DNA of 47,286 nt. Origin: a virus. This document shows, piece by piece, positions 5,347 to 47,286 of this stretch (position 1 is the first letter of the stretch; each line of letters begins with the position of its first letter). The notes beneath the pieces are model-generated. The model was given only the letters and a program-made list of their open reading frames with translations. It ran no database searches and was not told the DNA's origin. The DNA is taken from IMG/VR virus record IMGVR_UViG_3300037011_000898, positions 1-47,286 of that record. The stretch is one strand, 5' to 3'. The position numbers and the translations under genes are program-made.

Positions 5347-7158
5347 ATGAATGATCTTCGAGAGAGCATGAAACGAATCTTTAGCACTCGGCCGAAGCCG
5401 ATTGCCGTGCAGGAAGTGAAGTCGAGAGAGGAAGCCACCAGGTTTGCCCCTGACTGCTCGGTCACAAAGAACCCTGCTTACTTTGTGGAGGGGTGGCTCG
5501 GCGGGGGCAAGCTTCTGTTTGTCCTCAAGGAAGGCGTCCTTCAGGCGGCCGTGGTGGTCTGGCCTGACAACTCCTTCGTTGCCGCTGACGCACAGGACAA
5601 GCCACTTCACTTAGAAGCTCTCTCGAAGATCGTCGACTTGTCACTTATCAACCTCACCGAAGCTGCCTCGGATACAAACAAGCATATTCTCGAAGACGAC
5701 GTGAAGAACTGGATCTCGTCAAAGATCAACGCGGCCTTGCTCGCCCTTGGTGTTGATAAGGAGAAGTGGAGCTCGGTAGAAGACGTTGTCTTCTCCGCAG
5801 CGCTGGCAGGCAAACTCGGTGATGGAACCCCTTCCCAGGCTACCGCTGCGGCAATTGCGGACATGGTCACGGAACTGTCAGGCACTACCGCAGCTCCGAC
5901 CCCAGAACCGGAAGTTGCCGCAGGTCCTGAGACTATGCCTGTGGGTCCTGAAGTGGGCCTCGAAGGTGAGACTGACGTCGCAGTTCCTGAAGAGCCCGAA
6001 CCCGGTGAGGATCTTTCTGGGGTCGAAGCCGAGATCGACAAGATGGCAGCAGAAGAAGAGCCCGAGGAGGAAGGTGAACCGGGGCCTGAAGAGGAGCCAT
6101 CTGAAGAAGAGCCCGAAGCTCCCGAAGGCGAAGAAGAGCCTGGGTTGAAGGGCGTCGAAGCCGAGATCGACAAAGAAGCTGGTGAGGAAGGCAACGAGTT
6201 TGCAAAGGTTCACAAAGGTCGGGCAGAACTCAAGCATATGAAGCCCGAGGACTTCGACGAGGAGGCCCTCAAGAAAGGTACTCAGCATGAGCTTGAGCAC
6301 ACCGACGACTCCAAGGTTGCTCAGCAGATCGCGATGGACCACCTTGCCGAAGATCCCAAGTACTACGAGAAGTTAGAGAAGATGGAGAAGGGCAAAAAGG
6401 CAAAGACCGAATCTGCTCATGAGCTTGTCGCAACCATTGAGTTTCCTGATATGGCTCTTGATGCTTCTGCGTTGGAGAAGTTTGGTCGAGACAACGCGCC
6501 GCGGACTGCCTTTGATGTCACTCAAGAGGAAGGTGGATATGAAGCCTACTACGGAGAGGCAGACGAAGTCTTTCATGGTCCGACAGTCAGGGCACTCGCT
6601 CAGCAGATCAAGAGCTTTCTCCAAGGTGATCCTGTCGTAAAGAGTGCGGGGAGATTTGTGATCACTATGAAGGAAGGAAAGACTGAAGGTCTTTTCAAGA
6701 AAACTCCTTGGTCTGCTCGAATTGATGAACCAAACAATAGAGTACTAATGTTTGATCTTCAATATCAAGGTGATAATGAAGCAGAAGCACAAAAGGAGGC
6801 AGAAGCTTTGGCGGCTATGCATCCTGAAGGGAAACTTACAGCGGTAACGAGAGGAAAGCCGGCTTATTTCCCTTATGAACCCCGTTCGGATGATTATCCG
6901 AGCGTTGCTGCTGCTGTTACTGCTTCTAAAGAAATCGATACTTTGGTTGACCAACTTCTCGAGCAGCCTGTTGAAGCTCCTGCAAAGCCCGCAGCTCCCC
7001 CGAAGGAGAAGCCTGCTTCAACACCTGTCAAATCACCGTCCAAGCCGTCGACACCGATCCGCCCCCAGCCGGGACAGAATCCGCACCCAAAAGCATCATT
7101 GAAGGACATCGAATTGTTCAAGAAGGTCCGGACGGAGCGAAAGCACACACACGCGTGA
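5347..7158 (+). CDS. acidic multidomain protein with DUF5661-like domain
   Basis: A 603-residue protein. Residues 1-180 look globular. Residues of about 185-275 are a Pro/Glu-rich linker with VEAEIDK repeated twice. Residues of about 295-345 (LKHMKPEDFDEEALKKGTQH, then a segment ending in MDHLAEDPKYYEKLEKME) match the DUF5661 pattern found in phage proteins, which has a conserved His/Glu/His-rich core. A second globular region follows, and a Pro/Lys-rich tail ends the protein. An LTEA tetrapeptide near residue 103 resembles a prohead-protease site. It starts two bases after the preceding stop. Its function is unknown; a virion-associated role is inferred from the neighbours. Confidence 0.6.
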   Translation: MNDLRESMKRIFSTRPKPIAVQEVKSREEATRFAPDCSVTKNPAYFVEGWLGGGKLLFVLKEGVLQAAVVVWPDNSFVAADAQDKPLHLEALSKIVDLSLINLTEAASDTNKHILEDDVKNWISSKINAALLALGVDKEKWSSVEDVVFSAALAGKLGDGTPSQATAAAIADMVTELSGTTAAPTPEPEVAAGPETMPVGPEVGLEGETDVAVPEEPEPGEDLSGVEAEIDKMAAEEEPEEEGEPGPEEEPSEEEPEAPEGEEEPGLKGVEAEIDKEAGEEGNEFAKVHKGRAELKHMKPEDFDEEALKKGTQHELEHTDDSKVAQQIAMDHLAEDPKYYEKLEKMEKGKKAKTESAHELVATIEFPDMALDASALEKFGRDNAPRTAFDVTQEEGGYEAYYGEADEVFHGPTVRALAQQIKSFLQGDPVVKSAGRFVITMKEGKTEGLFKKTPWSARIDEPNNRVLMFDLQYQGDNEAEAQKEAEALAAMHPEGKLTAVTRGKPAYFPYEPRSDDYPSVAAAVTASKEIDTLVDQLLEQPVEAPAKPAAPPKEKPASTPVKSPSKPSTPIRPQPGQNPHPKASLKDIELFKKVRTERKHTHA

Positions 7159-7914: not shown

Positions 7915-8259
7915 GTGCTGGTTACTCAGAGTGATGTTTTTGATATTCCGATGTCGCTGAGTGTTGTCCTGAACATCAGGGAAAACAATACCTATCAGCG
8001 TTCGTTGTACTTCAAGAATCTGCTCGGCGCTGACACGCTGGCCTTTCAGATCGAGACTTCCGCTGATGGCGGGAGTACCTGGACTCTGATTGATACGGCG
8101 TTCAGTGTGGCGGGTGGAGAAATCGTTGTCAAAGAGATCACCGCTCCTAACATTCTCCGCGTCCGTGCAAGCGGGGGTGGGAATGACCGTGATGCCTACA
8201 TTGCCTATGCTCGTTTCATCGAAGACGAAGACCACGAGTGGGTAACTCCCGCCATCTAG
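7915..8259 (+). CDS. small beta-sandwich protein, candidate virion decoration protein
   Basis: A 114-residue protein with a GTG start preceded by a perfect AGGAGGTG. Residues of about 43-60 contain ETSADGGSTWTLIDTAF. The E-S-x-DG-x-x-WTL pattern recurs in the gene at 24618 (ESNDGTNWTLV), and both then have an R[VI]R strand. This is typical of small jelly-roll or Ig-like proteins on phage surfaces, which suggests a distant paralogous pair. There is no enzyme motif. It closes the first block of acidic and virion-type genes. Confidence 0.5.
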   Translation: MLVTQSDVFDIPMSLSVVLNIRENNTYQRSLYFKNLLGADTLAFQIETSADGGSTWTLIDTAFSVAGGEIVVKEITAPNILRVRASGGGNDRDAYIAYARFIEDEDHEWVTPAI

Positions 8260-8274
8260 GTTGTAACAACCTAC

Positions 8275-8991
8275 ATGCATGTTTCAGTAGTTGTACCAGC
8301 CTATAATACTTCTGTGTACATCGAAGAGTGCTTAAACTCAATCTTTGTACAAACCCATCAGGATTTTGATGTCATAGTCGTGAACGATCGCAGCAGAGAT
8401 GATACAGCTGAGAAAGTGTCGCGGCTTCTTCCGGGCCGCCAACTTACTTTGCTCAACCTGGCAGAGCATAGGGGTGTGACGTATGCTACCGAAGTTGGTA
8501 TACGTAACGCAGAAGGTCCAGTCATCACTATTGTTGATAGTGATGACCGAATCCTGCCTTCTTCTCTTGTGACCGGTGTGCGCCCCTTTGAATTTCCAGA
8601 TGTGGGGTTTGTCTGGACTGCATTCATGACGAGTAAGAATCGCGCGGGATGGAGTGGACCAAAGCCTGAGGGCAAGACCTTGTATCATTCTCTTATGTCA
8701 GGATGGTGGCGAGCATCACACCAGAAGTTTTTTCGAAAATCGGCTTACTCCAGGGCGCTTCCACTTAATACTATGATTGATCGGGCGTCTGATTTCCAGC
8801 TTGTACTTCTGCTCGCATTGACAGGTTGTAAGTGTCTACATGTTCCGGAGATTACTTACTGGTATCGAATGAATCGTCCTGGGAGTATCACCAGTGAGGG
8901 GAGCGAACGCCAGAAAAAGGCTGTCGAACAGATCAAACAATGGGTGAAAGAACAAATCCGGGTGAGAGGAGTCCATGAGCCTGTTCAGTAA
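8275..8991 (+). CDS. family 2 glycosyltransferase
   Basis: A 238-residue GT2 enzyme. The N-terminus MHVSVVVPAYNTSVYIEECL is the classic GT-A nucleotide-sugar binding start. FDVIVVNDRSRDDTAEKV follows, and ITIVDSDDRILPSS carries the metal-binding DxD-type motif. The C-terminal part (YWYRMNRPGSIT) resembles the acceptor-side region of polysaccharide GT2 enzymes. It transfers a sugar from an activated nucleotide donor, in the cytosol or at the inner membrane face; donor and acceptor are not deducible. It is separated from the main glycan island by about 5.5 kb and overlaps the next gene by 17 bases. Confidence 0.88.
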   Translation: MHVSVVVPAYNTSVYIEECLNSIFVQTHQDFDVIVVNDRSRDDTAEKVSRLLPGRQLTLLNLAEHRGVTYATEVGIRNAEGPVITIVDSDDRILPSSLVTGVRPFEFPDVGFVWTAFMTSKNRAGWSGPKPEGKTLYHSLMSGWWRASHQKFFRKSAYSRALPLNTMIDRASDFQLVLLLALTGCKCLHVPEITYWYRMNRPGSITSEGSERQKKAVEQIKQWVKEQIRVRGVHEPVQ

Positions 8992-11853: not shown

Positions 11854-12488
11854 TTAACCAGATCGAACAAGCAATTACCACCCTCGTTGAAGCGGGAGTA
11901 GATCCTGAGCGAAGAGGAGTAACGGGAGGGGCAAGGGTGGTTCTTTTGGCTCTCAACAGCCTTCGTCGACAGTACGGAGAGAAGGTATACTGGTCAAAAG
12001 ATGACATTTCCCGTCACTGGAAAAACAACATGGCAGATGTGGAGAAGTTTTATACGGGAGAGGCATCAAGCAATCATCCCGGAAGATCTGGGCGCTACGG
12101 AGGATGGAAGCCTTGGGATTGGGCGGATAGATGGAAGCGTGCAATTGAGAATCTTCTCCAACGAGGCTTGATTGACCATTGGGGTCAACTTCGTCCATAT
12201 TCAAAGGTCGAGATCAAGATTACAGCCACGGGTCGAACGGTCGCTGACGAGTTTCGATATGAATGGTTCAACAAGGACTTTTCCGGTCATTACAACTTTG
12301 CAAAAGGCAGAGAAGTGCTGGATGATCTTAACATGCATCCAAGGAAAGACGCCTTTTCTGTATTCATCAATGGTGAAGAGTACACCGTTGATGATGCGCT
12401 TAATCTGATAACAGATCACCGCACAGCAGAGTTTGCGAAGTTGAGAGATGATCCTAATACCGAGGTTGAAATCAGGAGGAAAGTGTAA
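11850..12488 (+). CDS. unknown protein, paralogue of the gene at 13915
   Basis: A 212-residue protein of unrecognised family. Its N-terminus (IEQAITTLVEAGV, then WSKDDISRHWKNNM) and its centre (TATGRTVADEFRYEWFNKDF) align with the gene at 13915 (IDKAIARLVEQQV, HEDISTIWTSYM, THAGRRLADKFRYEWFTRDF). The central segment after a helical region looks like the wing of a winged-helix domain, so nucleic-acid binding is possible. ATG at 11850 overlaps the protease stop as ATGA, which indicates coupling. Two copies 1.4 kb apart point to a local duplication followed by divergence. Confidence 0.6.
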   Translation: MINQIEQAITTLVEAGVDPERRGVTGGARVVLLALNSLRRQYGEKVYWSKDDISRHWKNNMADVEKFYTGEASSNHPGRSGRYGGWKPWDWADRWKRAIENLLQRGLIDHWGQLRPYSKVEIKITATGRTVADEFRYEWFNKDFSGHYNFAKGREVLDDLNMHPRKDAFSVFINGEEYTVDDALNLITDHRTAEFAKLRDDPNTEVEIRRKV

Positions 12489-13335: not shown

Positions 13336-13915
13336 TCCAATTACAAAGGCTTTTCAGATCATCGAACATGCCGCGATTGATGAAAGCATCCAAGACTTCG
13401 TCCGTGATCTAAAAGCCACGCAGCACGGTGATCGTACCAATCCTGTCTACGATTACTTGAAGGACTACCACAAAGAAGGCAGTGTGTGGAGACACACACT
13501 GCTGACTCTGGATTCATTGCCGAGTGTGCTCTCCGTGCTTGGATATCCAAACTGGGGGTCGTATGCTGCCAAGTATTCGAATGATCTCCGATCGGCAGCA
13601 CTCTATCATGATATTGGGAAGATCGTTACTCAGCAACCTTCGACCACAAGATCAGGATCGTACTCGTTTCCTGACCACGCAGCCCACCAGATTGTAGTGG
13701 GTCTGTTGAGGAGATATGACCTTACCCCTTCTTCTCTGGCGATTGATCTGATTACTCATCACCACAATTCTCCAGAGCAGTTTGCCACGTTGGGCTGGCC
13801 TGACTACAAGAAGGCGTTGCTGATCATCCTGAAAGCTGCAGACAACATGGCTGTTGGTCCCAGGTCTGCTGAAGAGGCTTTGGTTCATGTAAAGCCTTTC
13901 ATGGAGAAGATGTGA
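13322..13915 (+). CDS. HD-domain phosphohydrolase
   Basis: A 198-residue HD-superfamily enzyme. The metal-binding set is complete: His58 (VWRHTLLT), His96-Asp97 (LYHDIGK), His119 (FPDHAAHQ), a His-rich ITHHHNS at about 145-150, and Asp174 (KAADNM). The arrangement resembles the HD domain next to tRNA nucleotidyltransferases and related phosphohydrolases. The substrate could be a nucleotide, a cyclic nucleotide or a 2',3'-cyclic phosphate. ATG at 13322 is preferred over a TTG at 13310. The stop is shared with the next start (TGATG). Confidence 0.85.
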   Translation: MDPANPITKAFQIIEHAAIDESIQDFVRDLKATQHGDRTNPVYDYLKDYHKEGSVWRHTLLTLDSLPSVLSVLGYPNWGSYAAKYSNDLRSAALYHDIGKIVTQQPSTTRSGSYSFPDHAAHQIVVGLLRRYDLTPSSLAIDLITHHHNSPEQFATLGWPDYKKALLIILKAADNMAVGPRSAEEALVHVKPFMEKM

Positions 13916-14559
13916 TGGACAAGATTGACAAAGCCATTGCCCGGCTTGTTGAGCAGCAGGTACGCCTGAACAAGCAAGAAAAGATGTGCCTGCTAGTTTT
14001 GAATTGGGCGGCTAGGTTCGGCGGGGCAGAAGTCCCGACGAAAATGTTTACCCACGAAGACATCTCTACCATCTGGACTTCGTATATGCCTGACGAAGAA
14101 ATGCTTGATTGCTTCTATGCAAGGCTACCTGGTTTTGACGTGCGGCCAATGATCATCAAACGACTGAAAATGTTTGGCTTAGTTGAGCCAGTGAGAAATC
14201 CCGACAGCTACATATCAATGCACGCGCGCGTAGTTTCAACCTTTCGTATTACTCATGCGGGTCGGCGATTGGCTGACAAGTTTCGGTATGAGTGGTTCAC
14301 CCGTGATTTTACTGGGAGTTACGAAATCGACTGGGGCAAAACAGATACAAAATCGGATACTTCCGCTATGCTCGGCTGGTTACTGCTAAAATTACTCAAG
14401 TTCCACCCTAGAGGAAAAGATTACGTTGTTCGCGTAGTGTATGATCAAGACGTAGATCAATTTCCTTCCGATTGGCTTTCGATTGAAACTGCAATCCAGT
14501 ACATACATGATGACGACCTTCGCTCCAAAATAAACTTGATTGAAATCAAAAAGGCTTGA
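13915..14559 (+). CDS. unknown protein, paralogue of the gene at 11850
   Basis: A 214-residue protein related to the gene at 11850. The best-conserved segment is THAGRRLADKFRYEWFTRDF, near residues 110-135. The N-terminal helices and the DIS-x-x-W motif also align. The C-terminal third differs more. It may have a winged-helix-type fold, inferred from the helix-helix-wing look of the conserved region. ATG at 13915 overlaps the HD-gene stop by one base. It is the last gene before the glycan island and may share its transcript. Confidence 0.6.
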   Translation: MDKIDKAIARLVEQQVRLNKQEKMCLLVLNWAARFGGAEVPTKMFTHEDISTIWTSYMPDEEMLDCFYARLPGFDVRPMIIKRLKMFGLVEPVRNPDSYISMHARVVSTFRITHAGRRLADKFRYEWFTRDFTGSYEIDWGKTDTKSDTSAMLGWLLLKLLKFHPRGKDYVVRVVYDQDVDQFPSDWLSIETAIQYIHDDDLRSKINLIEIKKA

Positions 14560-14573
14560 TACTCAGGAGTTCA

Positions 14574-15431
14574 ATGGAGATGAGTGCAAGTCAGAAACTA
14601 AGTGTTTTGATTGTACAAATGGAGGGGTTAGGGAATGCCATACTTACCACACCTCTCATCCAAGCTGTGGCATCACTAGGCCATAGGGTTTCAGTCCTGG
14701 TCGATCCTTCGCGTGCAAGTCACATTGCCTTTACTGCGTGGCCATGTATAGAAAGACTTGTTTTTGAGCCTTACCCCGCGGATGTAGAACTCTGGTGTCA
14801 CCCTGTCTGGCAGCACAAGTTTCCCCCCAAGAATCGCAGAGTTTACACCCCTGTTGCGAATCTACCCGGTCCATGGCTGGATCGATTTCAGAAGCACGAG
14901 GTCGAATACCTGATGGACATGGCCAGGGATATGGGCTATGCTGGTCCTGTCCCGCCGTTGAGAGTCTATTCAAGTAAGCAGCAGAGAAAGCATAAACGTG
15001 TGGCAGTTGGTATTGGCTACCTCAAAGCCGGTACCAACCAGGCCTGGCCTAAGAAGCATTGGGGCAATGACAAGTACGCCGGATTGTGCAGGTTGTTGCT
15101 TGACAGGTTGAATGTGACTCCTGTTCTAGTTGGAGATGGCCTGGATTTTGCGAAAGATGGTTGTAGAATTCTGTCCCCGGGCGTGGAGAGCGTTTGTGGA
15201 AGGTCGCTCTATGACGTTGTCGATTCCATCAACGACTGCGATGTGTACATCGGAAATGATACTGGTCTGATGCACGTCGCAGCAGCACTCAAGAAACCTT
15301 GCATTGCGATGTTCATGAACACCAGCATTGTAAAGAACCATCCTTGGGGTGTAGAGTGGGTGGCTTTTGATGGCAAGAACACCGATCCGGTGACAGTTGT
15401 AAACCAACTTGAGACTCTGTTTGGCTTATGA
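14574..15431 (+). CDS. family 9 glycosyltransferase (heptosyltransferase-like)
   Basis: A 285-residue GT-B enzyme of the GT9 type. The N-terminal domain starts VLIVQMEGLGNAILTTPLIQ, the usual G-D/N-x-x-x-x-TP block. The C-terminal domain has WPKKHWGNDKYAGLC, then VLVGDGLDF, and the diagnostic CDVYIGNDTGLMHVAAALKK. GT9 enzymes add heptose or other sugars to lipopolysaccharide cores, and phage homologues act on unknown acceptors. ATG at 14574 follows AGGAG; a TTG at 14556 would overlap the preceding gene. It is the first gene of a run of coupled glycan genes (ATGA to the next). Confidence 0.88.
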   Translation: MEMSASQKLSVLIVQMEGLGNAILTTPLIQAVASLGHRVSVLVDPSRASHIAFTAWPCIERLVFEPYPADVELWCHPVWQHKFPPKNRRVYTPVANLPGPWLDRFQKHEVEYLMDMARDMGYAGPVPPLRVYSSKQQRKHKRVAVGIGYLKAGTNQAWPKKHWGNDKYAGLCRLLLDRLNVTPVLVGDGLDFAKDGCRILSPGVESVCGRSLYDVVDSINDCDVYIGNDTGLMHVAAALKKPCIAMFMNTSIVKNHPWGVEWVAFDGKNTDPVTVVNQLETLFGL

Positions 15432-16195
15432 AGTTTGCCGTTGATATACCGACCTGTGATCGCCCGAAAGTCCTTCTTGAGTGCCTTCACGCGTTTGAGA
15501 ACCAGACAGTCAAACCCGACAAGATCTATGTTGTGAATAACAACTCAAAGGATCCAGTCATCGTACCAAAGTTGAGTGTTCCTGTTGTTGTTCTTGCGTG
15601 TGATTTTCCTGTAAAAGGCCCTGAGCAAGGGCATCAGACTGCTTTGAAGCGCTTCATCCAAGAAGGGTATGAGATTGCCGTTCGATGGGATGATGATTTG
15701 ATCCCAGAACAGCGCTGCATGGAATATCTATTACATGGGTTTGATCTACCTTTCGTGAATTGTGTAGGAGGATGTTACTACCGGCAAGGATCTCAGATCT
15801 ACAGAGGTGGGCCGCATTCAGGATTTCCTCCATCTGACGGGAATTGGAATCACATTCAGTACTTTCTGTGGCAGCCCATCGGAGAGAGTTCTGTGCCGGG
15901 TATTTGTCCTCGTAGCCTTTACAGTGGCTTTGCCTATCAGGTGAAAGCCATGAGTGATCAAGGCGGGTTTTGTACGGAGTATTCAAAGGTAGGCCACCGA
16001 GGGGAAACTGACGCAACACTCCGGCTTGGCTGCTGCTGGATTGCACCTGCTGCTGTGGCGTTACACAAGGTTTCCGAAGGAGGGGTTCGTTCAATCCCGT
16101 GCGTAGACAAGGTGAGAGCAGCTGATCATGCACTTTTCGTCTCACGCATGAAGAAACTGGCTATCAGCCCTGGCAGTCGAGGGTGGGTGATATGA
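15428..16195 (+). CDS. GT-A (GT2-like) glycosyltransferase
   Basis: A 255-residue GT-A protein. It starts MKFAVDIPTCDRPKVLLECL, has DKIYVVNNNSKDPVI, then a DDD metal-binding triplet at 88-90 (AVRWDDDLIPEQ). A C-terminal GHRGETDATLRL resembles the catalytic-base region of GT2 enzymes, where a Glu/Asp precedes an Arg-rich segment. The donor and acceptor are unknown. It begins with an ATGA overlap with the GT9 gene and ends with another into the methyltransferase, so these genes should be made in fixed proportion. Confidence 0.82.
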   Translation: MKFAVDIPTCDRPKVLLECLHAFENQTVKPDKIYVVNNNSKDPVIVPKLSVPVVVLACDFPVKGPEQGHQTALKRFIQEGYEIAVRWDDDLIPEQRCMEYLLHGFDLPFVNCVGGCYYRQGSQIYRGGPHSGFPPSDGNWNHIQYFLWQPIGESSVPGICPRSLYSGFAYQVKAMSDQGGFCTEYSKVGHRGETDATLRLGCCWIAPAAVALHKVSEGGVRSIPCVDKVRAADHALFVSRMKKLAISPGSRGWVI

Positions 16196-16797
16196 TTGAG
16201 TGTATTTCTCATTGCTATTTCAATCCAAGTCTGTTCAACCCCTCTCCTTTATTTGTTGACGGCGGGTCGTGTCACGGCCAAATTGTCATTCCTTTCTTGA
16301 AGCGGTTTGAAAAGGCAACGGCCATCTGTGTTGAACCCGCACCCGAGTCGTTTGAGGTACTCGAACATGAGCTTTCCGCGAACGAGTTAATGAGTCGTTG
16401 TCAACTCTGGCGGGGGGCTTTATGGGAAAAATCTGAGGAAGATCTGACTTTCTGGGTGTGGTCAAAAGAGCGTCAGAGAAACTCTTTTTTCCCTTGCAAC
16501 GGAGAAGGTCCTACTCAACCTGATACAAAAGTTCAGGTTCGCACGATCACGATCGATCGTCTGATTGGTAAACAGGTCGTTGATCTGCTCAAGCTTGATA
16601 TTGAGGGAGCAGAATCTGTCGTGCTTGAGTCACTGTCAACAGAGACAGCTCGACAGATCAGGCAGATTTCAGTTGAGCTGCACCCAATAGCTGTCCCTCG
16701 TTGTCAAGGGCGTATTTGGGTTTCTTTGATTCGTTGCGGATACAAAATCGTCGAGTTTTCGGAGCGTCCAAACATTCTGTTTGCTTTCCATCAATGA
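16192..16797 (+). CDS. FkbM-family methyltransferase
   Basis: A 201-residue SAM-dependent methyltransferase. The FkbM pattern is clear: VDGGSCHG at 22-29 (motif I), an acidic end of strand 2 in CVEPAPESFE, the VRTITIDRL segment, and DLLKLDIEGAESVVLESL. FkbM enzymes O-methylate sugars or polyketides; in glycan loci they usually cap or decorate sugars. The position between glycosyltransferase genes with ATGA overlaps on both sides supports a sugar substrate. ATG at 16192 is chosen for its exact overlap with the previous stop. Confidence 0.87.
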   Translation: MIECISHCYFNPSLFNPSPLFVDGGSCHGQIVIPFLKRFEKATAICVEPAPESFEVLEHELSANELMSRCQLWRGALWEKSEEDLTFWVWSKERQRNSFFPCNGEGPTQPDTKVQVRTITIDRLIGKQVVDLLKLDIEGAESVVLESLSTETARQIRQISVELHPIAVPRCQGRIWVSLIRCGYKIVEFSERPNILFAFHQ

Positions 16798-17693
16798 AAA
16801 TCGTCATTCTTACTGACTGTTGCCTTGCCGAGAAACGCGGTGGTGTTGCGGTGTACGCCGAGCATCTCAAATGGGTTTTTCCTGATGCTGTTCAGGTGAC
16901 TTCCCGAAAGGTGAAGTGTCGCGTTCGTGATGGCCTCGAACGAGCAATTTTGACCGGAAAAGAAGCTGAGAGGCAAGGAATCATTCGTCGGGACGATATC
17001 GTCATTGCAGATGGATATTGGGGCGCTGGGTTGACGAACCAGAGTCGTGTGATTTGTGTCGTCCACGGCCTCTACGCTGGCTGGTACGGTCCAGACCACC
17101 GCTACTCAAAGTTTCAAAGTGAGTATTTGCCGGGCCATCATGTTGTTCCGGTGAGCAGCTTTGCAGCGGAAGAGATTCGCGTTTTTTCAGGGGCGAAGAT
17201 TGATCGGCTGATTTGCAATGCTGCAAATCTGGATATCTTCGTTCCGCCGAAGGAGAGGCAGCGTGCTTTCGTTGTGGGAACAATTTTCAAAGGGGACAAG
17301 GAGAAGATCTTTCGCCTTACACTTGACAGTATTGCTCAAAGGATCAAAATGCGATGGGTGGGCGGAAAGTGGCCTGATGAGATCGTTAGCGGACTGCAAC
17401 GATGTTCGGTCTTTTTACATCTCTCGAAGCATGAAGGAAACTCTTACGCTGTTCTTGAAGCGCTGTCATGTAACCTTCCTGTTGTTGGAACTGCGACGGG
17501 TCTGTTGTGGGACTCGGCGGGCAGGTTTGGAGCGGTGGTTCCTGATGACATCGGTCCTGATGACTTGATTGATGTCTTGCACCTCGTACACGAACAGCGA
17601 GATACATACAATAATCGGCAATGGTTGGAGCAGAACAGTTCGTTTGAGTTGTTTGCGAAGAGTTGGAAGGAATACATCAAAGGGTTTCGATGA
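16794..17693 (+). CDS. family 4 glycosyltransferase (short)
   Basis: A 299-residue GT-B enzyme of the GT4 type. The N-terminal domain begins MKIVILTDCCLAEKRGGVAV. The C-terminal domain has VGTIFKGDKEK, then FLHLSKHEGNSYAVLEALSC with the E-x7-E motif that binds the nucleotide-sugar donor, followed by NLPVVGT. It is somewhat shorter than typical GT4 enzymes. ATG at 16794 overlaps the FkbM stop as ATGA, and the 3' end overlaps a second GT4 gene in the same way. Donor and acceptor are not deducible. Confidence 0.83.
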   Translation: MKIVILTDCCLAEKRGGVAVYAEHLKWVFPDAVQVTSRKVKCRVRDGLERAILTGKEAERQGIIRRDDIVIADGYWGAGLTNQSRVICVVHGLYAGWYGPDHRYSKFQSEYLPGHHVVPVSSFAAEEIRVFSGAKIDRLICNAANLDIFVPPKERQRAFVVGTIFKGDKEKIFRLTLDSIAQRIKMRWVGGKWPDEIVSGLQRCSVFLHLSKHEGNSYAVLEALSCNLPVVGTATGLLWDSAGRFGAVVPDDIGPDDLIDVLHLVHEQRDTYNNRQWLEQNSSFELFAKSWKEYIKGFR

Positions 17694-18706
17694 GAATTGC
17701 GCATGTCTGCTATGGAGCGGTTCCTGTCCCCCCAAAGGCGTATGGTGGGTCGGAGCGTCACATCTATGCCGTGGCAATGCTTCAAGCTCGACAGGGGCAT
17801 GATGTTACTCTCTTCTGCCATCCCGAGTCAAATGTGCCTGGATGCGGTATGGTAAGAATCGGTCTGGATGGAACCGCCGTTCAGACTCTGGTAATCGGGT
17901 TTCAGAAAAGACAGAAGTTTGATGTGATCCACGACCACTCTCCGTACGGCCTGATTGGGACAAGAAACACCGGGGTGAAGGTCATCAGGACAGTGTATGG
18001 TGATCAGAATATTCTTCTTCGCACTACTTTGCGAGACGATGTACTGACTGTCTTTACCTCGAGGGCTTTTGCTGAGTTTTACGGGTATCCTCGAAATCCT
18101 GTTGTTTTCAATCCGCCTGTCTGGGAGTTTGACCCAAAGTACTACAATACTGGCAAGAGGGAACCCTGGGTGGCGTATGTTGGAAATCTGGCCACCTTCA
18201 AAGGGACTCATATTGCCCTTGAATGGGCCAAGATGATGGGAAGAGCCATTGGCGTCTTTGGGCCCGCAAAAGACTCATCGGAATACATTCACCGGCTTCG
18301 CTCGCAATCGCCGTACCCCGAAGTTGGGGTAGGCCGGGCTCTTGAGTTGTTGAAGGCAGGTGGACCTGGGCCGGTTTTTGGCGGAATGGCAAACGAGGAA
18401 CAGAAGTGGACTGTACTATCACGTGCCCATGCACTTTTCGTTCCTTCCGTGTGTGTCGATAATGCTCCTACTATTGCTCTTGAGGCCATGCTTGCAGGTT
18501 GCCCGATTTTGGGGCATAATGTCGGGGGAATTCCGGAGATTCTTGGCCGTGAGGGAGGTCTGGCCACATACGATCTTGAAGAGATCAGGCATTTTGATCA
18601 GTGGATCGAGAAGCACTATCATCCGGAGTTGGCTCATAATCGAGTGCTTGAAGTCTACAACGTCGAGCGCTGCGTCGAGGCCTATGAAAAGCTCTATCAG
18701 GCGTAA
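17690..18706 (+). CDS. family 4 glycosyltransferase
   Basis: A 338-residue GT4 enzyme. The N-terminus MRIAHVCYGAVPVPPKAYGG has the Gly-Gly loop after strand 1 and is followed by SERHIYAVAMLQARQGHDV. The C-terminal domain shows WVAYVGNLATFKGTHIALEW and LFVPSVCVDNAPTIALEAML, then a GCPILGHNVGGIPEIL segment, the standard donor-binding region. This is the most canonical glycosyltransferase of the island. It starts with an ATGA overlap and extends 23 bases into the next gene. Confidence 0.9.
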   Translation: MRIAHVCYGAVPVPPKAYGGSERHIYAVAMLQARQGHDVTLFCHPESNVPGCGMVRIGLDGTAVQTLVIGFQKRQKFDVIHDHSPYGLIGTRNTGVKVIRTVYGDQNILLRTTLRDDVLTVFTSRAFAEFYGYPRNPVVFNPPVWEFDPKYYNTGKREPWVAYVGNLATFKGTHIALEWAKMMGRAIGVFGPAKDSSEYIHRLRSQSPYPEVGVGRALELLKAGGPGPVFGGMANEEQKWTVLSRAHALFVPSVCVDNAPTIALEAMLAGCPILGHNVGGIPEILGREGGLATYDLEEIRHFDQWIEKHYHPELAHNRVLEVYNVERCVEAYEKLYQA

Positions 18707-19400
18707 CTTTACAGCAAATGATCTTACTGCCTTTGTCTTCACGAATGGAAGATCAACTCTTCCTTTCTGTTTGAAGACTATTCGAGAACAATCCGTTCCA
18801 GTACGAACTCGTGTGATTCAGAACAAGACCATGGTTGAGGCTATCAAAGAAGCCCGCGCAGCTTGCTTTACACCGTTTCTTTTGAAAGTCGATGATGACT
18901 TCTTTCTCCATCCAAAGTTCATTGAGTTCGCACTGAGACAGATGTCTGCTCACTATCTGGAAGATACCGCGCTTTTTTGGTGGCACTTGTGGGAACTTTG
19001 GAGCCAAGAAGTAGTTCAGTCAGTGAAAATCTACCACGTAGGTTCGATGTGGGATGCTTCGTTTAATCCAGACATACAGGGGCGAATCGATCTTGTCTTT
19101 CTGTGTGAGATGAAGGCAAGATGCATGCGAGTACAGTCTTTTCAAGATGTTGTTGGCGCTCACTCCTGCGGGACCCAATACGAGCAACAGTACTACATCA
19201 AGCTCTGGAAGAAGCAAGCGCCTCGCAGGTTTCACAACAAGGCTAAGTCTCAGAAGATGATGAGCTTTAACATTGGCGCGTTGCAACAGCACAGCATGTT
19301 TCGAAAAGAGGTCGAACAGATCAACGTTCAGAGGAAAACAGAGTTCAACGAGTTTCTGCATGCAACAGAACAGACCTCTTGTTCTCATTACGTTCGATGA
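18684..19400 (+). CDS. GT-A-like glycosyltransferase with DDD motif
   Basis: A 238-residue protein. It resembles a minimal GT-A enzyme: LTAFVFTNGRSTLPFCLKTI at the start, a VDDDFFLHP segment with Asp70-72 as the metal-binding motif, then WDASFNPD and GAHSCGTQYEQQ. It lacks the long acceptor domain of GT2. ATG at 18684 has GAGG upstream and overlaps the preceding gene by 23 bases. The protein ends in a region that overlaps the deacetylase gene by 41 bases. The long overlaps at both ends are unusual but typical of compact phage islands. Confidence 0.72.
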   Translation: MKSSIRRNFTANDLTAFVFTNGRSTLPFCLKTIREQSVPVRTRVIQNKTMVEAIKEARAACFTPFLLKVDDDFFLHPKFIEFALRQMSAHYLEDTALFWWHLWELWSQEVVQSVKIYHVGSMWDASFNPDIQGRIDLVFLCEMKARCMRVQSFQDVVGAHSCGTQYEQQYYIKLWKKQAPRRFHNKAKSQKMMSFNIGALQQHSMFRKEVEQINVQRKTEFNEFLHATEQTSCSHYVR

Positions 19401-20064
19401 CGGTTATGCGAGTCACCTTCGAGCTGCAGAGTTGATGTCTGACTTGAAGCTCAAAGGTGTCTTCAGTATTACTGTCAACTGGCTTGAGAAAGAAGACGGC
19501 CTCTTTCAGAGAGATCTCCGGCGGATTAAGCAGTTGGGGCACATGGTATGCAACCATTCTATGAACCACCCTCGTCCGGAGAAGCTGTCGATCGAGCAGA
19601 TAATGAATGATTACTTACAAGCCAAGGTCTGGTTGAATGCTCGCGGGTTTTTTGGGGACTATCTCATACTTCCTTTCGGAGGGAACTCGCTCCTCGGTCC
19701 TGTACATCAAAATCTACTCGAAATGGAGTTCAAGTGGGTGCGGTCAGTAAGGGGTGATATGAATGAATCAGGTTACCTCCATATTGACCATGCGCCAAAG
19801 ACGATTGTTTTCAGGAAAAATCTACAGATAATGCCCGTGACAGCAATCGGTGCCGACAAGTATGTCACCCAACTGCCAGAATCAATTGCTGCGTCAATCA
19901 AGTCTTGCGGGATTTCCGTAGTCATGTATCATCGGGTATTGCTGTCAACTCCTACAGATTGGGATTGCACATGGCAAACATTCAAGAGCCAGATGGTCTT
20001 TCTCTCTCGAAAAGTGGCAAATAGAGAAATTGATAACGTCCTGCCAAATGAGCTGATGGGATGA
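19360..20064 (+). CDS. polysaccharide deacetylase (NodB-type, CE4-like)
   Basis: A 234-residue NodB-homology protein. Residues 8-16 (VLITFDDGY) give the first CE4 motif with Asp13/Asp14. Residues 65-70 (NHSMNH) give the metal-binding His-x3-His motif with His66 and His70. LPFGGNS near 104-110 stands at the position of motif 3. Such enzymes remove acetyl groups from GlcNAc- or related sugars. There is no signal peptide, so it would act in the cytosol, on a precursor or on a glycan made there. ATG at 19360 is chosen as the first Met before the conserved block. Confidence 0.82.
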   Translation: MQQNRPLVLITFDDGYASHLRAAELMSDLKLKGVFSITVNWLEKEDGLFQRDLRRIKQLGHMVCNHSMNHPRPEKLSIEQIMNDYLQAKVWLNARGFFGDYLILPFGGNSLLGPVHQNLLEMEFKWVRSVRGDMNESGYLHIDHAPKTIVFRKNLQIMPVTAIGADKYVTQLPESIAASIKSCGISVVMYHRVLLSTPTDWDCTWQTFKSQMVFLSRKVANREIDNVLPNELMG

Positions 20065-20879
20065 ATTTCGACCTACTCGTAGTCATCCGCTGTCATGCAA
20101 AACTCGATTTTGTGATTGATACCTATCAGGCCGCTAAATACTACCTTGGTCCGGCGGCTGAAGTTGTTTTCGCTGTAGATGCAAGCGCGACCGGGTTCGC
20201 GGACAAGATGGTAGAGATCTTCGGGGCAGACCGTGTCTATCGCTCTCCAACAAGCTGCGGTTGGGGACCGGGTTTGTATACCCTTCTTGCTGAGTCGATC
20301 AAGTACTTCGGGGAGATGTTTGCCTTCAACCATCTCCAATCGATCGACTATGATACACTTTACATAGCGCCCGGCGGTGACCTGGCGGTACTGGATGAGA
20401 TTGTTTCTCAGAGCATCGGTCTGTTGGGGTGTCACAACAAGAACAACGAGCACTGGCGTGCTGTTTTTGAGAAGAATCGGAAGTCGTTTGAAAAGGTTTT
20501 CGGGCCAGTTCCTGATTGCTACGTGACGGGTGAAGGTGTTCAAGGCGGTTTCATGACGTTGACTCGATCTGCCATTGACGAGCTGACCCGGCATGGAATG
20601 CTTGATCCGCCCTATTCTCAGGCCAAAAAGTACACGACAATTGCTGATGATCATCTGTTGCCAATTTTTGTACGAATGTGCGGCCTGACAGTCAAGGACG
20701 TATCCACATTTGCAAGGTGCAGTTGGAGGGCCAGAGAAGATCCACGTGGCCTTGAGCAGAAAGGGTTCAAAGTTTTCCATCCGGTGAAACTCACCCCAAA
20801 GAATGACAACCGTTCGACTGAAGTAGAGATACGCAATTACTTCAGGAAACTGAGGGGCGCGACTGATAGGTTGCGATGA
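20061..20879 (+). CDS. glycosyltransferase-like protein of unclear family
   Basis: A 272-residue protein. The start MNFDLLVVIRCHAKLDFVID and EVVFAVDASATGFADKMV suggest a Rossmann-like GT-A domain. YDTLYIAPGGDLAVLDE occupies the position of a DxD region but has GGD. Downstream are GEGVQGGFMTLTRSA and IADDHLLPIFVRMCG, a pattern that looks like the acceptor and base region of GT-A enzymes. ATGA overlaps link it to the deacetylase gene before it and the unknown gene after it. A glycosyltransferase role is probable from context; the exact family is uncertain. Confidence 0.6.
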   Translation: MNFDLLVVIRCHAKLDFVIDTYQAAKYYLGPAAEVVFAVDASATGFADKMVEIFGADRVYRSPTSCGWGPGLYTLLAESIKYFGEMFAFNHLQSIDYDTLYIAPGGDLAVLDEIVSQSIGLLGCHNKNNEHWRAVFEKNRKSFEKVFGPVPDCYVTGEGVQGGFMTLTRSAIDELTRHGMLDPPYSQAKKYTTIADDHLLPIFVRMCGLTVKDVSTFARCSWRAREDPRGLEQKGFKVFHPVKLTPKNDNRSTEVEIRNYFRKLRGATDRLR

Positions 20880-21307
20880 AATCACTTACTCGAGTCACCG
20901 GTGACTCGCTGACCTTGATTTTCAGTCCTGAAGGTGCTCTCTCAAGTGCTCGTCTGAATGGACAGAACGTCGCGTCCGAGATTAGCTACGTTCGTGAGAC
21001 TGATTGTGAGACCTGTCTGGATGTATTTGGGTTCAGGAAAGAATGGGATCCATCCGAGGTTGATCAGTTTTCGAAGATCAGTGACCGTCTACGAGAGCAT
21101 GGGCTTCAAGTCTTCAACGTGATGCTTGCCCGGGAGAATCAATATACGGTCTTCCTCTGTGAGTTAAAGGACCCAGCCCATATTCACAAGACTACAAAGG
21201 CGGTTTTGCTTTTCGATGTAACCTCCAAAAGGTTTCTCAATGTTGTAAGATTGTTTGATATGAAGTCAACAGCTTGCCAGAAGATTCTGAGTGAGAACTG
21301 GAGGTAA
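20876..21307 (+). CDS. unknown protein in the glycan island
   Basis: A 143-residue protein with no recognised motif. It contains an SPEGALSSARLNG segment and a Cys pair (TDCETC), then a helical region and a beta-rich end. ATG at 20876 overlaps the previous stop as ATGA, which places it in the same translational series. It precedes queD by two bases, so it may serve either the glycan or the pterin enzyme. Nothing in the sequence decides between them. Confidence 0.55.
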   Translation: MKSLTRVTGDSLTLIFSPEGALSSARLNGQNVASEISYVRETDCETCLDVFGFRKEWDPSEVDQFSKISDRLREHGLQVFNVMLARENQYTVFLCELKDPAHIHKTTKAVLLFDVTSKRFLNVVRLFDMKSTACQKILSENWR

Positions 21308-21309
21308 GT

Positions 21310-21798
21310 ATGTCTTTTGATGTTTGTTTTCAGTTCAGTTTTGAGTTAGCCCACCGGTTGGATTCTGCCTTCAGTGCTGCATGTGTGAATACCATTCATG
21401 GGCACTCGTACAAGGTTGATGTATTTGTGACGAGCGAGAGATTGAACAGTGATGGAATGGTAGTAGATTTTGGTTTGCTCAAGGAGATGTGCGAGAGTCT
21501 TCGCTCTGTTTATGACCACGCCGTGATCTTATCCAAGAGGTCAGTGCTGAAGGCTTTGAAATCTAATGTTCGCTGCTCGTTGGCGCGTCCGACAAAAAAG
21601 CAGATGGCCGAGGCTCATCGACTTTTTGGGCAAAAGTTGTTAATCTCAACTTTCAACCCTACTGCCGAACAGATGGCAAAGGCTTTTCACGACTCGCTTT
21701 CAAATCGATTGCATGAGCTTCGTCTTTGGAATAACCCGATTCTTTCTGTTGTGCGTGTGCATGAAACTGAGCACGGATTTGCTCAGTACAGTGGTTGA
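21310..21798 (+). CDS. queD: 6-carboxytetrahydropterin synthase (QueD / PTPS family)
   Basis: A 162-residue PTPS-fold enzyme. The zinc ligands are His15 (ELAHRLD), His30 and His32 (TIHGHSYKV). Cys25 five residues before the HGH is the expected catalytic Cys, His70 (YDHAVIL) the catalytic His, and ETEHG near 152-156 the substrate-anchoring Glu. NPTAEQMA is also conserved in the family. QueD converts dihydroneopterin triphosphate to 6-carboxytetrahydropterin in 7-deazaguanine (preQ0/queuosine) synthesis; phages use this pathway for DNA guanine modification or tRNA. An insertion at about residues 75-110 separates the His and NPT blocks. GAGGTAAG precedes the ATG. Confidence 0.88.
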   Translation: MSFDVCFQFSFELAHRLDSAFSAACVNTIHGHSYKVDVFVTSERLNSDGMVVDFGLLKEMCESLRSVYDHAVILSKRSVLKALKSNVRCSLARPTKKQMAEAHRLFGQKLLISTFNPTAEQMAKAFHDSLSNRLHELRLWNNPILSVVRVHETEHGFAQYSG

Positions 21799-24617: not shown

Positions 24618-24986
24618 ATGGCCTCGGAAAGAGTCGAAAGAGATCAGTTTGTGCTTCGGGGACCTGCCGGCGAGGTATTCAGTAACTGGCCGATCCATTT
24701 TGCGGGCGCCTCGGTGCTGATGCGGAATGCTTCAGAACAGCCTGTGACTGTTGAAGTCCACGAGAGTAACGACGGGACGAACTGGACTCTCGTGCTTTTC
24801 TCTACCCATGCGGCCGCCGGTCTGCTGAACATTACGATGGTGGGATTGAGCTTCGCCGTGATCCTGTTCATGTCCGAGCAGAAATACGTTCGCATTCGCC
24901 TGACTGCCGAGAATGGTGATGGCGTGTTCTGCTCACTCGTGCAGTATCCGCCGAAGCCACGTGAGGGAGCAGGAGAGTATGCCTAG
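24618..24986 (+). CDS. small beta-sandwich protein, candidate decoration protein
   Basis: A 122-residue protein. The centre reads VEVHESNDGTNWTLVLFST, and YVRIRLTAENGDG follows later. The pattern matches that of the gene at 7915 (ETSADGGSTWTLI ... LRVRASGGG), so the two are likely distant relatives. AGGAGG precedes the ATG. Ig-like or jelly-roll surface proteins of phages often show this composition. It overlaps the following gene by eight bases. Confidence 0.5.
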   Translation: MASERVERDQFVLRGPAGEVFSNWPIHFAGASVLMRNASEQPVTVEVHESNDGTNWTLVLFSTHAAAGLLNITMVGLSFAVILFMSEQKYVRIRLTAENGDGVFCSLVQYPPKPREGAGEYA

Positions 24987-26533: not shown

Positions 26534-28801
26534 ATGAAGATCCTGAAAGAGACGCGGGCGCCGGAAACCTTCATTCCTACCAAGCCCCTCGTTCTTGTTG
26601 AGGGGAAAGGTGATGGGCGGAAGGCATGGGTAATCGAAGGAATCTTCGGCAAGATCAACTGCAAGAACGAGAACAACCGCCGGTATCCCAAGGCTGTTTG
26701 GGACAGAAACCTGGCAGAAGGTTCTCCGTTCCGAAGCCGGCTGAAGATGAGGACTGTTCTCGGCGAGCTCGAGCATCCTGAGAGCGGTAACACTCACCTG
26801 GAGCGCGTGTCTCACATCATCACCGATGCCTGGATCGAGAACTTGGCCGAGGCAAAGATCGCCGAGCTGGGCCTGGCAGAGATGGGCGTAAAGCCCGGAG
26901 AGTATGTCCTGGGCCGTTATGAGATCCTCAATACACCCCGCGGCGGAATTCTAAAGGCGCTACACGAAGCCGGTGTGAAGGTCGGGATTTCCTCTCGTGG
27001 CCGCGGTGATGTGAAACAGGTCGATGGCATTGATGAGGTGCAGGACAATTACGTGCTTGATACCTGGGACGCTGTCTATCTTCCGAGCGTGAGTGAAGCC
27101 TATCCGGGTCCGAGGATGACCGAACGTGACGGTGATCTTGGTTCCCAGCTGCCCAAGGCTACTCAGGATGCCGGAGTGAAGGAGCTGACTCCTCCTGGGG
27201 GGCTTCCCGCCACTGCGGCGCGTGATATGGATGTCACCGGGACGAACACAGTCAACAACTGGAAAGCCGAAGCCGAGCAGATCGTGAGGAAGCTTGAAGT
27301 GGCAGTGGGCGAAGACGAGAGGGACATCGCCGAGCTTATTGAGCTCTTTCCCAGAGGAATTGATCTGATTGACCGGCTTGCTCCAATGGATGATCCTGAG
27401 GCAATCAAGCTGAAGTCCCAGGCGTTGACCTTGATTCGCATTCTTGCTGACAAGGTCATGAAGAAGGAACTCGCTCGCAGTACTGGTGGCGAAGAAGGTG
27501 AAGGCGGCGGTGAGGAAGGCAGTTCGAGATCTGCTCCTTCGAGCGAGAAAAAGTCCTCATCCTCGGGTGAGAAGAAGTCTTCTCCTTCTGGTTCCAGTGA
27601 GAAGAAGGGCGAGAAGACAACCGCTGAGAAGGAGAGGGAAGAAAAGGCCGAGAAGGCCGAGAAAGAGAAGAAGGAAAAAGAGGAGAAGGCCGAGAAAGAG
27701 AAGAAGGAAAAGGCCAAGAAAGAATCGGTCGAGGAAGGTACCATGAGGGATCTGGCGTCGACTGTCGCCAAGAGTATCAAGGGTACGCCCCGGCAGCGCC
27801 TGATGTGGCGCGGTGACCTGGAAGCCGAGCTCAACAAGGCTGGTCATCCTTCCAACGAGGCGACAATCACTCAGCTCGCCGCAGAGTTGAAGGCGCAGGG
27901 CGTCAATGTCGACCAGGTCCGGTATGAGGCTTTGCACGAAGCGACCGAGGCTGATCTCAAGGCAGTAGTGGACGGGACCATCGTTTCCATCCCGGCGAAG
28001 AAGCTACTCGCGCATATGAAGGAGTGTCCGGAGGCCGAACTAGAAGTGGTAACTTTCCTGGAGAAGCAGGAGGGCGACGTGCTGGTGCGCGTTTGCTCGA
28101 AGGGCAACAAGAAATTCGTTGTCCGTCTTCTTGAGCCGGCTTTCGGCGAGAGTAACATCGTGCTCGAGTATGAACAGATGAAGTCGTCAGAGACAAACCC
28201 GCAACCCTCTGAAAAGGAGGAAGACATGAACGTGAAGGAGATGATGGCGGCGCTGGTGACCGAGAACGATCAACTCAAACAACAGCTTGGGGACGGTGGT
28301 GGTGGAGTTCCGGAAGTCCGCTACGAAGCAGCCAAGAAGCTCATTGCTGGTCTCGTCGAGCGCGTGAAGGCCGTACAGGCAGAACTCGTACACGAGAAGA
28401 AGCGCGTGAAGGCTGCGGCGAAGCTGATCCACAAGATGACCAGCCAGGCCAAGGGCAAGAAGGACGAGTCTCTTGAACAGCCTCCTCCACCTCCTCCTGT
28501 CCTTGTGGAGAAGAAGGAAGAGCCCAAGGCCGCGCCGGCTGTTCCAGTGAGCAAGACTGTCGAGCAGGTGACAGAGACTTTGATCAGAAGTATGAGGACG
28601 CAGCCTGCTTCTGAGGCTTCCGCTCCGGCTCCTGTCCTTGTGGAGAAGAAGGAAAAGGCCAAGCAGCCCGACAAGGTGACTCAGGAGTCCAAGGATCTCG
28701 TGAAGCGCGTCACTACTGCGGGCAAGGCCGCAGCGGCACCTGTGACCGAGGCGAGGGGCTCGAACCTGATGAGTGCAACAGTCCGTCGTCTTCACTCATA
28801 G
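26534..28801 (+). CDS. prohead core protease (gp21-like) fused to a scaffold-like C-terminus
   Basis: A 755-residue protein; T4 gp21 has about 210. Residues 1-195 are the S77-type prohead protease. NENNRRYPKAVW is followed by LGELEHPES with catalytic His81 and GISSRGRGDV with Ser153/154. A helical segment (about 240-312) leads into a Lys/Glu linker (about 318-398). Then come a globular domain (about 403-550) and, from Met565, a coiled-coil, Pro-rich region with two PVLVEKKE repeats. The likely role is capsid maturation cleavage combined with scaffolding, as in phages that fuse protease and scaffold. Internal starts with Shine-Dalgarno sites are at 28226 and perhaps 27743. Confidence 0.82.
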   Translation: MKILKETRAPETFIPTKPLVLVEGKGDGRKAWVIEGIFGKINCKNENNRRYPKAVWDRNLAEGSPFRSRLKMRTVLGELEHPESGNTHLERVSHIITDAWIENLAEAKIAELGLAEMGVKPGEYVLGRYEILNTPRGGILKALHEAGVKVGISSRGRGDVKQVDGIDEVQDNYVLDTWDAVYLPSVSEAYPGPRMTERDGDLGSQLPKATQDAGVKELTPPGGLPATAARDMDVTGTNTVNNWKAEAEQIVRKLEVAVGEDERDIAELIELFPRGIDLIDRLAPMDDPEAIKLKSQALTLIRILADKVMKKELARSTGGEEGEGGGEEGSSRSAPSSEKKSSSSGEKKSSPSGSSEKKGEKTTAEKEREEKAEKAEKEKKEKEEKAEKEKKEKAKKESVEEGTMRDLASTVAKSIKGTPRQRLMWRGDLEAELNKAGHPSNEATITQLAAELKAQGVNVDQVRYEALHEATEADLKAVVDGTIVSIPAKKLLAHMKECPEAELEVVTFLEKQEGDVLVRVCSKGNKKFVVRLLEPAFGESNIVLEYEQMKSSETNPQPSEKEEDMNVKEMMAALVTENDQLKQQLGDGGGGVPEVRYEAAKKLIAGLVERVKAVQAELVHEKKRVKAAAKLIHKMTSQAKGKKDESLEQPPPPPPVLVEKKEEPKAAPAVPVSKTVEQVTETLIRSMRTQPASEASAPAPVLVEKKEKAKQPDKVTQESKDLVKRVTTAGKAAAAPVTEARGSNLMSATVRRLHS
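28226..28801 (+). CDS. candidate nested in-frame scaffold protein
   Basis: Within the protease fusion, AAAAGGAGG (28212-28220) lies five bases before an in-frame ATG at 28226. This start would give a 191-residue protein MNVKEMMAALVTENDQLKQQ and onwards: a coiled coil with a Pro/Lys-rich tail, the usual look of a phage scaffold. Lambda C/Nu3 uses the same layout. The caution is that AAGGAGGAA also codes for Lys-Glu-Glu, which is common in this protein, so the match could be chance. Confidence 0.4.
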   Translation: MNVKEMMAALVTENDQLKQQLGDGGGGVPEVRYEAAKKLIAGLVERVKAVQAELVHEKKRVKAAAKLIHKMTSQAKGKKDESLEQPPPPPPVLVEKKEEPKAAPAVPVSKTVEQVTETLIRSMRTQPASEASAPAPVLVEKKEKAKQPDKVTQESKDLVKRVTTAGKAAAAPVTEARGSNLMSATVRRLHS

Positions 28802-32039: not shown

Positions 32040-32057
32040 TGTTGATTGGTCTTGATT

Positions 32058-40722: not shown

Positions 40723-41091
40723 ATGATCAAGCATCTTGAAAAACGAGTTGTTGTTGACAACAGGTACGCACTGACTGATATTCATGTTGACGATTTCGTG
40801 GGCCCCGGCCGTCGCCGCTATGGCTTGTGGAAGGCTCCGGCGATCAAGACACTTCCAGAGCTCCCTCTGAGCGAAGGTACGTACTTTAGGTACACAATCA
40901 CTGCTGCAGATATCGGACGAATTGATCTCATTGCTTGGAGACACTATCAGGACGTGAATCTCTGGTGGGTCATTGCCCGGTGTAACGGGATTGCGAACCC
41001 GTTTGAGGATTTGGTCATAGGGCGGGTTCTTCTGATTCCATACAAAGCGCTGGTGGTACAGGCCATCGAGCAAGGTAGAACTTTCGTATGA
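40723..41091 (+). CDS. gp53-like baseplate protein with LysM-like region
   Basis: A 122-residue protein. The C-terminal half, GRIDLIAWRHYQDVNLWWVI followed by ARCNGIANPFEDLVIGRVLLIP, matches the LysM-like pattern of tail protein X and gp53. The N-terminus is polar, with GRRRYGLWKAP. In contractile tails this protein lies next to the hub and links hub and wedge. It ends with an ATGA overlap into the hub gene. Confidence 0.75.
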   Translation: MIKHLEKRVVVDNRYALTDIHVDDFVGPGRRRYGLWKAPAIKTLPELPLSEGTYFRYTITAADIGRIDLIAWRHYQDVNLWWVIARCNGIANPFEDLVIGRVLLIPYKALVVQAIEQGRTFV

Positions 41092-47131: not shown

Positions 47132-47133
47132 TT

Positions 47134-47286
47134 ATGACCCCACAACAATTTCTACAACTACTCACACAAAGGAGAGTCAAGTACAAGGTGGTTGATCGTT
47201 ATGTAGATGTAGAAGGTGACTGTAACATAGGTGGTCTGGGTCTAGTTGAGATTCCCGTACAGTTTCGTGTAGTTACAGGAAATTTC
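47134..47286 (+). CDS. leucine-rich-repeat protein, copy C (partial)
   Basis: The first 51 codons of a third copy run off the right edge. It starts MTPQQFLQLLTQRRVKYKVV and matches copies A and B at 150 of 153 bases; the differences are G to C, A to G and A to G. GATTATG before it is also found before copy A. The number of repeats is not visible. It follows the tail-protein-I gene directly. Confidence 0.85.
   Translation, partial: MTPQQFLQLLTQRRVKYKVVDRYVDVEGDCNIGGLGLVEIPVQFRVVTGNF

Follow-up and report, generated by a model that had tools for sequence, protein, structure and literature searches.

In pelagimyophages, the structural region contains large hypervariable islands that encode several glycosyltransferases (GTs), for which the authors favor a change of the host surface (PMC7029224), and moraphages hold four widely shared groups of putative GTs in their near-core genome (PMC12619734). 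For mycobacteriophages, phage-encoded GTs with glycans on the capsid and the tail tube are described (Freeman et al. 2023, as related in PMC11256854 and PMC12619734). Here we analyze an island of nine genes, g22 to g30, in the IMG/VR virus record IMGVR_UViG_3300037011_000898, a fragment of 47,286 bases hereafter called the window, to which all searches of the phage itself were confined. The island combines GTs of several families with a methyltransferase and a deacetylase, and it varies in content between constant border genes in related phages. We favor, at a probability of about one half, a stepwise cytosolic glycosylation of virion proteins over a change of the host surface or of the phage DNA.

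The island shares several traits with the host recognition cluster of pelagimyophages, which are T4-like contractile phages with several GTs and sugar-nucleotide genes in a hypervariable island of the structural region (PMC7029224). The window also comes from a T4-like contractile phage (matches to phrog_138, phrog_23, and phrog_219), and its GT content varies among relatives at a conserved site. The pelagimyophage cluster, however, lies between VrlC and gp14 together with tail fibre genes, whereas the present island occupies the stretch from the portal side to the prohead protease, is bounded by g10/g11 on one side and g29/g30/g36 on the other, and has no recognized tail fibre gene. Virion glycosylation of the Che8 type, as presented in the mycobacteriophage sources, similarly involves phage-encoded GTs with a capsid or tail protein as the proposed acceptor, but it relies on few GTs and its glycan was shown experimentally, whereas the set described here reaches ten or more enzymes, including a deacetylase and a methyltransferase, known from genes alone. 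Because of the pelagimyophage and moraphage precedents, a GT island is a kind of locus already known, and the statement of the first-pass annotation that so large a set is uncommon in a phage has to be tempered accordingly. The novelty concerns the lineage that carries the island, its site and conserved borders, a g29/g30 core that belongs to no Pfam or NCBIfam family, and the variety of sugar-modifying enzymes.

The nine genes, all on the + strand, fill positions 14574-21307. The first, g22 (14574-15431), encodes a GT9, or heptosyltransferase-type, enzyme (PF01075, 2e-17) with homologues in relatives G005 (44%) and G019 (32%), and is followed by the GT2 enzyme g23 (15428-16195; PF00535, 6e-9; 49% to its G005 homologue) and by g24 (16192-16797), an FkbM-family methyltransferase (PF05050, 4e-11; TIGR01444, 4.5e-23, over the cut-off). 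Two GT4 enzymes come next, g25 (16794-17693; PF00534, 2e-10) and g26 (17690-18706; PF00534, 1e-8, and PF13439, 6e-8), with G005 homologues at 39% and 37%, respectively. The polysaccharide deacetylase g28 (19360-20064) is of the CE4/NodB type (PF01522, 6e-12) and its relatives in the PDB are N-acetylglucosamine (GlcNAc) deacetylases. Its metal-binding motifs are intact (TFDDGY, and HSMNH for HSxxH) and agree with those of CE4 enzymes, with LPFGG in place of the usual RPPFG motif. Pfam matches thus confirm the GT9, GT2-like, FkbM, two GT4, and NodB-type assignments that had been made from the sequence. NCBIfam is in agreement, but its specific heptosyltransferase and deacetylase models match only weakly, the former far under the cut-off with g22, which is too little to name a donor or a substrate.

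Two GT-A-like enzymes had also been announced, and only one of them, g29, is borne out, by its predicted fold. The other, g27 (18684-19400), is an open frame overlapping both neighbors, with zero matches in Pfam, PHROGs, NCBIfam, and PDB sequences and no homologue among the relatives; its DDD motif makes it a possible GT-A enzyme. A search for the island at the DNA level in 50,697 phage records gave no match, and tblastn searches of g22, g23, and g26 against phages returned none or only marginal ones. An anti-phage defence role of the island was also considered and rejected, given zero PADLOC matches for its proteins.

As first described, the nine genes are joined by overlaps. With refined starts, all 8 junctions overlap, six of them as 4-nt ATGA overlaps, compared to 22 of the 50 junctions in the remaining window (Fisher p = 0.005, post hoc). 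The g26/g27 overlap measures 23 nt from the in-frame ATG at 18684, which leaves the overlap count unchanged relative to the provisional start, and the g27/g28 overlap measures 41 nt. An AGGAG motif stands shortly before the ATG of g22 at 14574 (CTCAGGAGTTCA-ATG), and a clear motif of this type is missing before most of the downstream genes, as coupling predicts. Translational coupling of the island genes is thus plausible from the gene layout, although short overlaps are frequent throughout the window, which weakens this argument. The GC content of the island is that of its surroundings.

The conserved core of the island is g29 (20061-20879, + strand), for which no Pfam or NCBIfam family model gives a match. 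An AlphaFold2 model built on an 11-sequence alignment reached a mean predicted local distance difference test score (pLDDT) of 92, and VIA-align placed it close to B3GalT6 (Z 17.2, root mean square deviation 3.9 over 232 residues) and XylT1 (Z 16.4, 3.6 over 246 residues). Across GT31 and GT14 enzymes (B3GalT6, B3GalT5, XylT1, and C2GnT), the fold is alike with Z values of 15.6-17.2 over 232-248 residues, whereas sequence identity to g29 is 9-12%. A DYD motif at residues 96-98 is almost invariant across the homologues. From the predicted GT-A fold, we are confident in considering g29 as a GT of an unnamed family. GT-A folds are common to many GT families, and that g29 resembles a peptide xylosyltransferase does not speak for a peptide acceptor.

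Homologues of g29 were absent from the 50,697 phage records, and a pattern scan of 84,980 bacterial and archaeal genomes, which reaches close relatives only, yielded 30 pattern matches, none of them a relative, and thus gave no hint of the host. Viral contigs scanned with the g29 protein as the only query gave one locus, and a 5-sequence g29 alignment was used in a further viral search. In total, g29 is carried by 10 phages: the window, seven records from a capsid scan of IMG/VR that returned 21 loci, and G019 and G020, found later. It is duplicated in three of the relatives, G004 (711-1475 and 1487-2278), G006 (71170-71961 and 102044-102757, about 31 kb apart), and G007 (6214-7008 and 17819-18610); the second copy of G007 sits at the left border, directly 3′ of g10, in the usual place of g11. 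The partner of g29 is the small protein g30 (20876-21307, + strand; AlphaFold2 pLDDT 85), found downstream of g29 in G001, G004, G005, and G017 and, at a greater distance, in G006. A search of its predicted fold against the PDB gave no convincing match (best Z 6.2), a result that neither shows nor excludes a new fold.

The relatives are metagenomic fragments, none certified complete, and several display only part of the gene frame; their genes were called with a simple script of our own, and functions given here as sequence readings were assigned without a family search. Gene maps reveal a constant frame made of g10 and usually g11 on the left, and of g29 and usually g30 on the right, followed by g36, the protease, and the capsid gene. 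Wherever the g29-bearing relatives are readable, the island is at this same site, ranging from two GTs to more than 10 genes. G002 has a minimal island with little besides g11 and g29, and G019 has additional transferase genes between g29 and g36. The cassette of G005 follows the order of the window (GT9, GT2, GT4, GT4, NodB remnant, g29, g30) at 29-49% identity, its NodB gene being cut to the C-terminal 81 amino acids with the catalytic part gone.

Between these constant genes, the enzymes differ widely. G001 encodes two sulfotransferase-like proteins (one over and one under the family cut-off), a DUF268 protein and, by sequence reading, several GTs and an FkbM-type protein. G007 has an asparagine-synthase-type enzyme (AsnB), an FkbM protein, a B12-radical S-adenosylmethionine (SAM) enzyme, and a GT4. 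The G017 island holds a PIG-L deacetylase, WbqC, a TylF-type methyltransferase, and a UDP-GlcNAc 2-epimerase, and that of G019 a GT2, the GT9 related to g22, and other transferase-like genes. WecB is also among the modifying enzymes of the relatives, and UDP-sugar-dehydrogenase-like genes were read in G019 and G020. In six more distant outgroup phages, whose capsid protein is about 40% identical and three of which span 139-176 kb, neither g29 nor any PF00534 or PF00535 match was found. After its tail genes, G001 displays a second possible glycan locus (90076-97581, sequence reading) with genes for a 1428-amino-acid protein that is transferase-like in parts, for a radical SAM/SPASM-like protein, and for a GT-A-like one.

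The site itself was compared with that of the nearest isolates retrieved through capsid and sheath proteins, Bacillus phage SP-15 and Listeria phage LIS04 (Thornevirus). Both present the same structural order as the window (portal, protease, capsid, sheath, tube, baseplate), but their portal-protease gap of about 4-5 kb contains ribonucleotide reductase genes and no annotated GT, where the window has its island. In G001, about 40 kb separate the homologues of portal and protease; the distance is 16 kb in G002, whose island is minimal, and 14 kb in G013, which has no GTs. From these distances, the island is an expansion of the interval between portal and protease that is specific to this lineage.

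The border genes are themselves conserved. On the left, g10 (7915-8259, + strand) encodes a small beta-domain protein marking the limit of the variable region, with homologues in G001, G002, G006, G007, G017, and G019. It is followed by the GT2 enzyme g11 (8275-8991, + strand; PF00535, 6e-26), which recurs at this boundary at 42-53% identity in G001, G002, G005 (two copies), G006, and G017 and at 31% in G019. The first-pass annotation counted the nine island genes correctly but overlooked this GT2, as well as the QueD-like gene located 2 nt downstream of the island. On the right flank, g36 (24618-24986, + strand) encodes another small beta-domain protein kept in the relatives, and profile comparison indicates that g10 and g36 are related (hhalign probability 95.6 over 50 columns). 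The protein encoded by g10 is probably located in the virion.

In the reading that we favor, the island would be a late-expressed phage glycan locus, whose soluble GTs would act in the cytosol and extend an oligosaccharide step by step on virion proteins during assembly, with capsid or decoration proteins as the likeliest targets. The deacetylase g28 (CE4) would take the acetyl group off an N-acetylhexosamine and the FkbM enzyme g24 would methylate the product. The invariant part, which would place or start the glycan, would consist of the core enzyme g29, its small neighbor g30, and g11, the GT2 at the boundary, and the interchangeable enzymes between the constant genes would alter its structure. 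Donor sugars would be derived from the host, except in the relatives with their own UDP-GlcNAc 2-epimerase or UDP-sugar dehydrogenase. A virion protein is favored as the acceptor because of the position in the late structural block, the related, structural-looking beta-domain proteins g10 and g36 on the flanks, the soluble appearance of the enzymes, the mycobacteriophage precedent, and the glycoproteins reported in phage XacN1. A host glycan, a virion glycoprotein, and modified DNA had all been proposed as acceptors from the first-pass annotation; each may in principle be the acceptor, with position, flanks, and soluble enzymes speaking for the virion. Several points weigh against glycosylation of the virion. 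GT9, WbqC, and WecB are enzyme types typical of surface polysaccharide loci. Neither g10 nor g36 is unusually Ser/Thr-rich, and no notable sequon or Ser/Thr enrichment was found in the candidate acceptors. Finally, g29 and capsid distance matrices correlate weakly (Mantel test, r = 0.46, p = 0.085), so that a strict vertical descent of the g29 core is not shown.

The same enzyme types, together with the GT4 and FkbM proteins, which are usual in surface polysaccharide loci, would also suit a remodeling of the host lipopolysaccharide or exopolysaccharide, carried out in the cytosol and blocking superinfection by competitors or the re-adsorption of released particles. Cytosolic enzymes could act on lipid-linked intermediates of the host, and the pelagimyophage authors prefer such a reading for their own island (PMC7029224). 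We nevertheless regard it as doubtful, since no phosphoglycosyltransferase, flippase, polymerase, or membrane or lipid-linked GT was found in the island or in the 135-164 kb relatives, which upholds the absence of initiating phosphoglycosyltransferase, flippase, and polymerase noted earlier for the island. The hallmark of gtrABC-type O-antigen modification or serotype conversion, a flippase and a multi-span or lipid-linked GT, has no counterpart among the island proteins, none of which is multi-span, and the only G001 and G006 proteins with at least 4 predicted spans are tape-measure-like. The position in the late structural block would also leave a surface change little time to take effect. 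A different reading takes the island for part of a bacterial polysaccharide locus that was recently acquired and is neutral or in decay, as its highly variable content among relatives and the truncated NodB gene of G005 would suggest. We consider this improbable, since all nine window genes are open and tightly overlapping, the gene order is maintained in G005 despite its divergence, the g29 core is kept in 10 phages, and the GC content does not depart from that of the surroundings.

A last alternative is that the GTs decorate modified phage DNA, such as QueD-made 7-deazaguanine, as a protection against host nucleases; viral DNA-hypermodifying GTs are reported (Pyle et al. 2024, as cited in PMC12619734). 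The gene lying 2 nt past the island, g31 (21310-21798, + strand), does encode a QueD-like 6-carboxytetrahydropterin synthase (PF01242, 2e-25; NCBIfam QueD model, 2.5e-21, under the model cut-off), and is the only gene of the 7-deazaguanine pathway in the 47-kb window. The closest relative, G001, apparently carries the full DNA modification pathway, with QueD, QueC, and FolE recognized by family models and QueE-like radical SAM and DpdA-like proteins (genes at 58967-59395, 100034-100657, 100566-101240, 102375-103214, and 112451-113137), and the window QueD is for this reason best explained by such a pathway. Among 16 records, however, QueD occurs in the window and G001 only and QueC in G001 only, and six others, including the 164-kb G006, have g29 islands. 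This distribution argues against DNA as the acceptor. The thymidylate-synthase-like hydroxymethylase family PF00303 was found in 0 of 13 records, which include the 135- and 164-kb relatives and of which none is known to be complete. Enzymes of the deacetylase, WbqC, and sulfotransferase-like types are not known to modify DNA. Decoration of DNA is thus very improbable, and g31 probably belongs to a pathway separate from the island despite its adjacency. QueD as a required part of the glycan pathway was likewise rejected, as islands exist without QueD or QueC.

The window is a 47-kb piece of a T4-like myovirus genome and lies in its late region, as PHROG matches to protease, capsid, sheath, and baseplate wedge genes in its right half indicate. 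The prohead maturation protease g39 (26534-28801, + strand; phrog_207, 3e-39) has a C-terminal extension and precedes the T4-type major capsid protein g40 (28960-30399, + strand; phrog_138, 7e-52), the tail sheath (35460-36965, phrog_23), and the gp6-type baseplate wedge protein (44032-46077, phrog_219). Residues about 145-275 of the capsid protein form a domain that resembles repeats in the C-terminal region of the gp6-type protein of several relatives, possibly a shared surface domain that could carry a glycan. Just 5′ of the island are two paralogous genes (11859-12488 and 13912-14559; 29% identity over 160 amino acids). A leucine-rich repeat-like gene is present in three dispersed copies (32046-32897, 42239-42814, and 47129-47286, the third cut by the window end), made of 63-nt (21-amino-acid) repeats with near-identical 5′ parts (158 nt, 98%), and G001 has a related gene (72114-73343). 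Cysteine-rich short-period repeats of the CEVTCEVGCEV type occur at the C-terminus of the tail protein g60 (about 47030-47131) and make up an entire 383-amino-acid protein in G017 (41045-42196).

A further proposal, which we put forward as an unlikely but specific one, is that g29 is the first member of a GT-A family of protein O-glycosyltransferases that is specific to phages and acts in the cytosol. Together with g30, it would start glycans on virion proteins, for instance g10 and g36, and the interchangeable enzymes would make the coat differ from phage to phage, a phage counterpart of flagellin or O-antigen glycan variation. Should the acceptor prove to be a virion protein, the phages of this lineage would possess a modular system to vary the sugar coat of their particles, with g29 as the constant enzyme. 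The island would then help to decide whether the GT islands in large phages from the environment act on behalf of the particle, the host surface, or the DNA, on which published surveys only guess.

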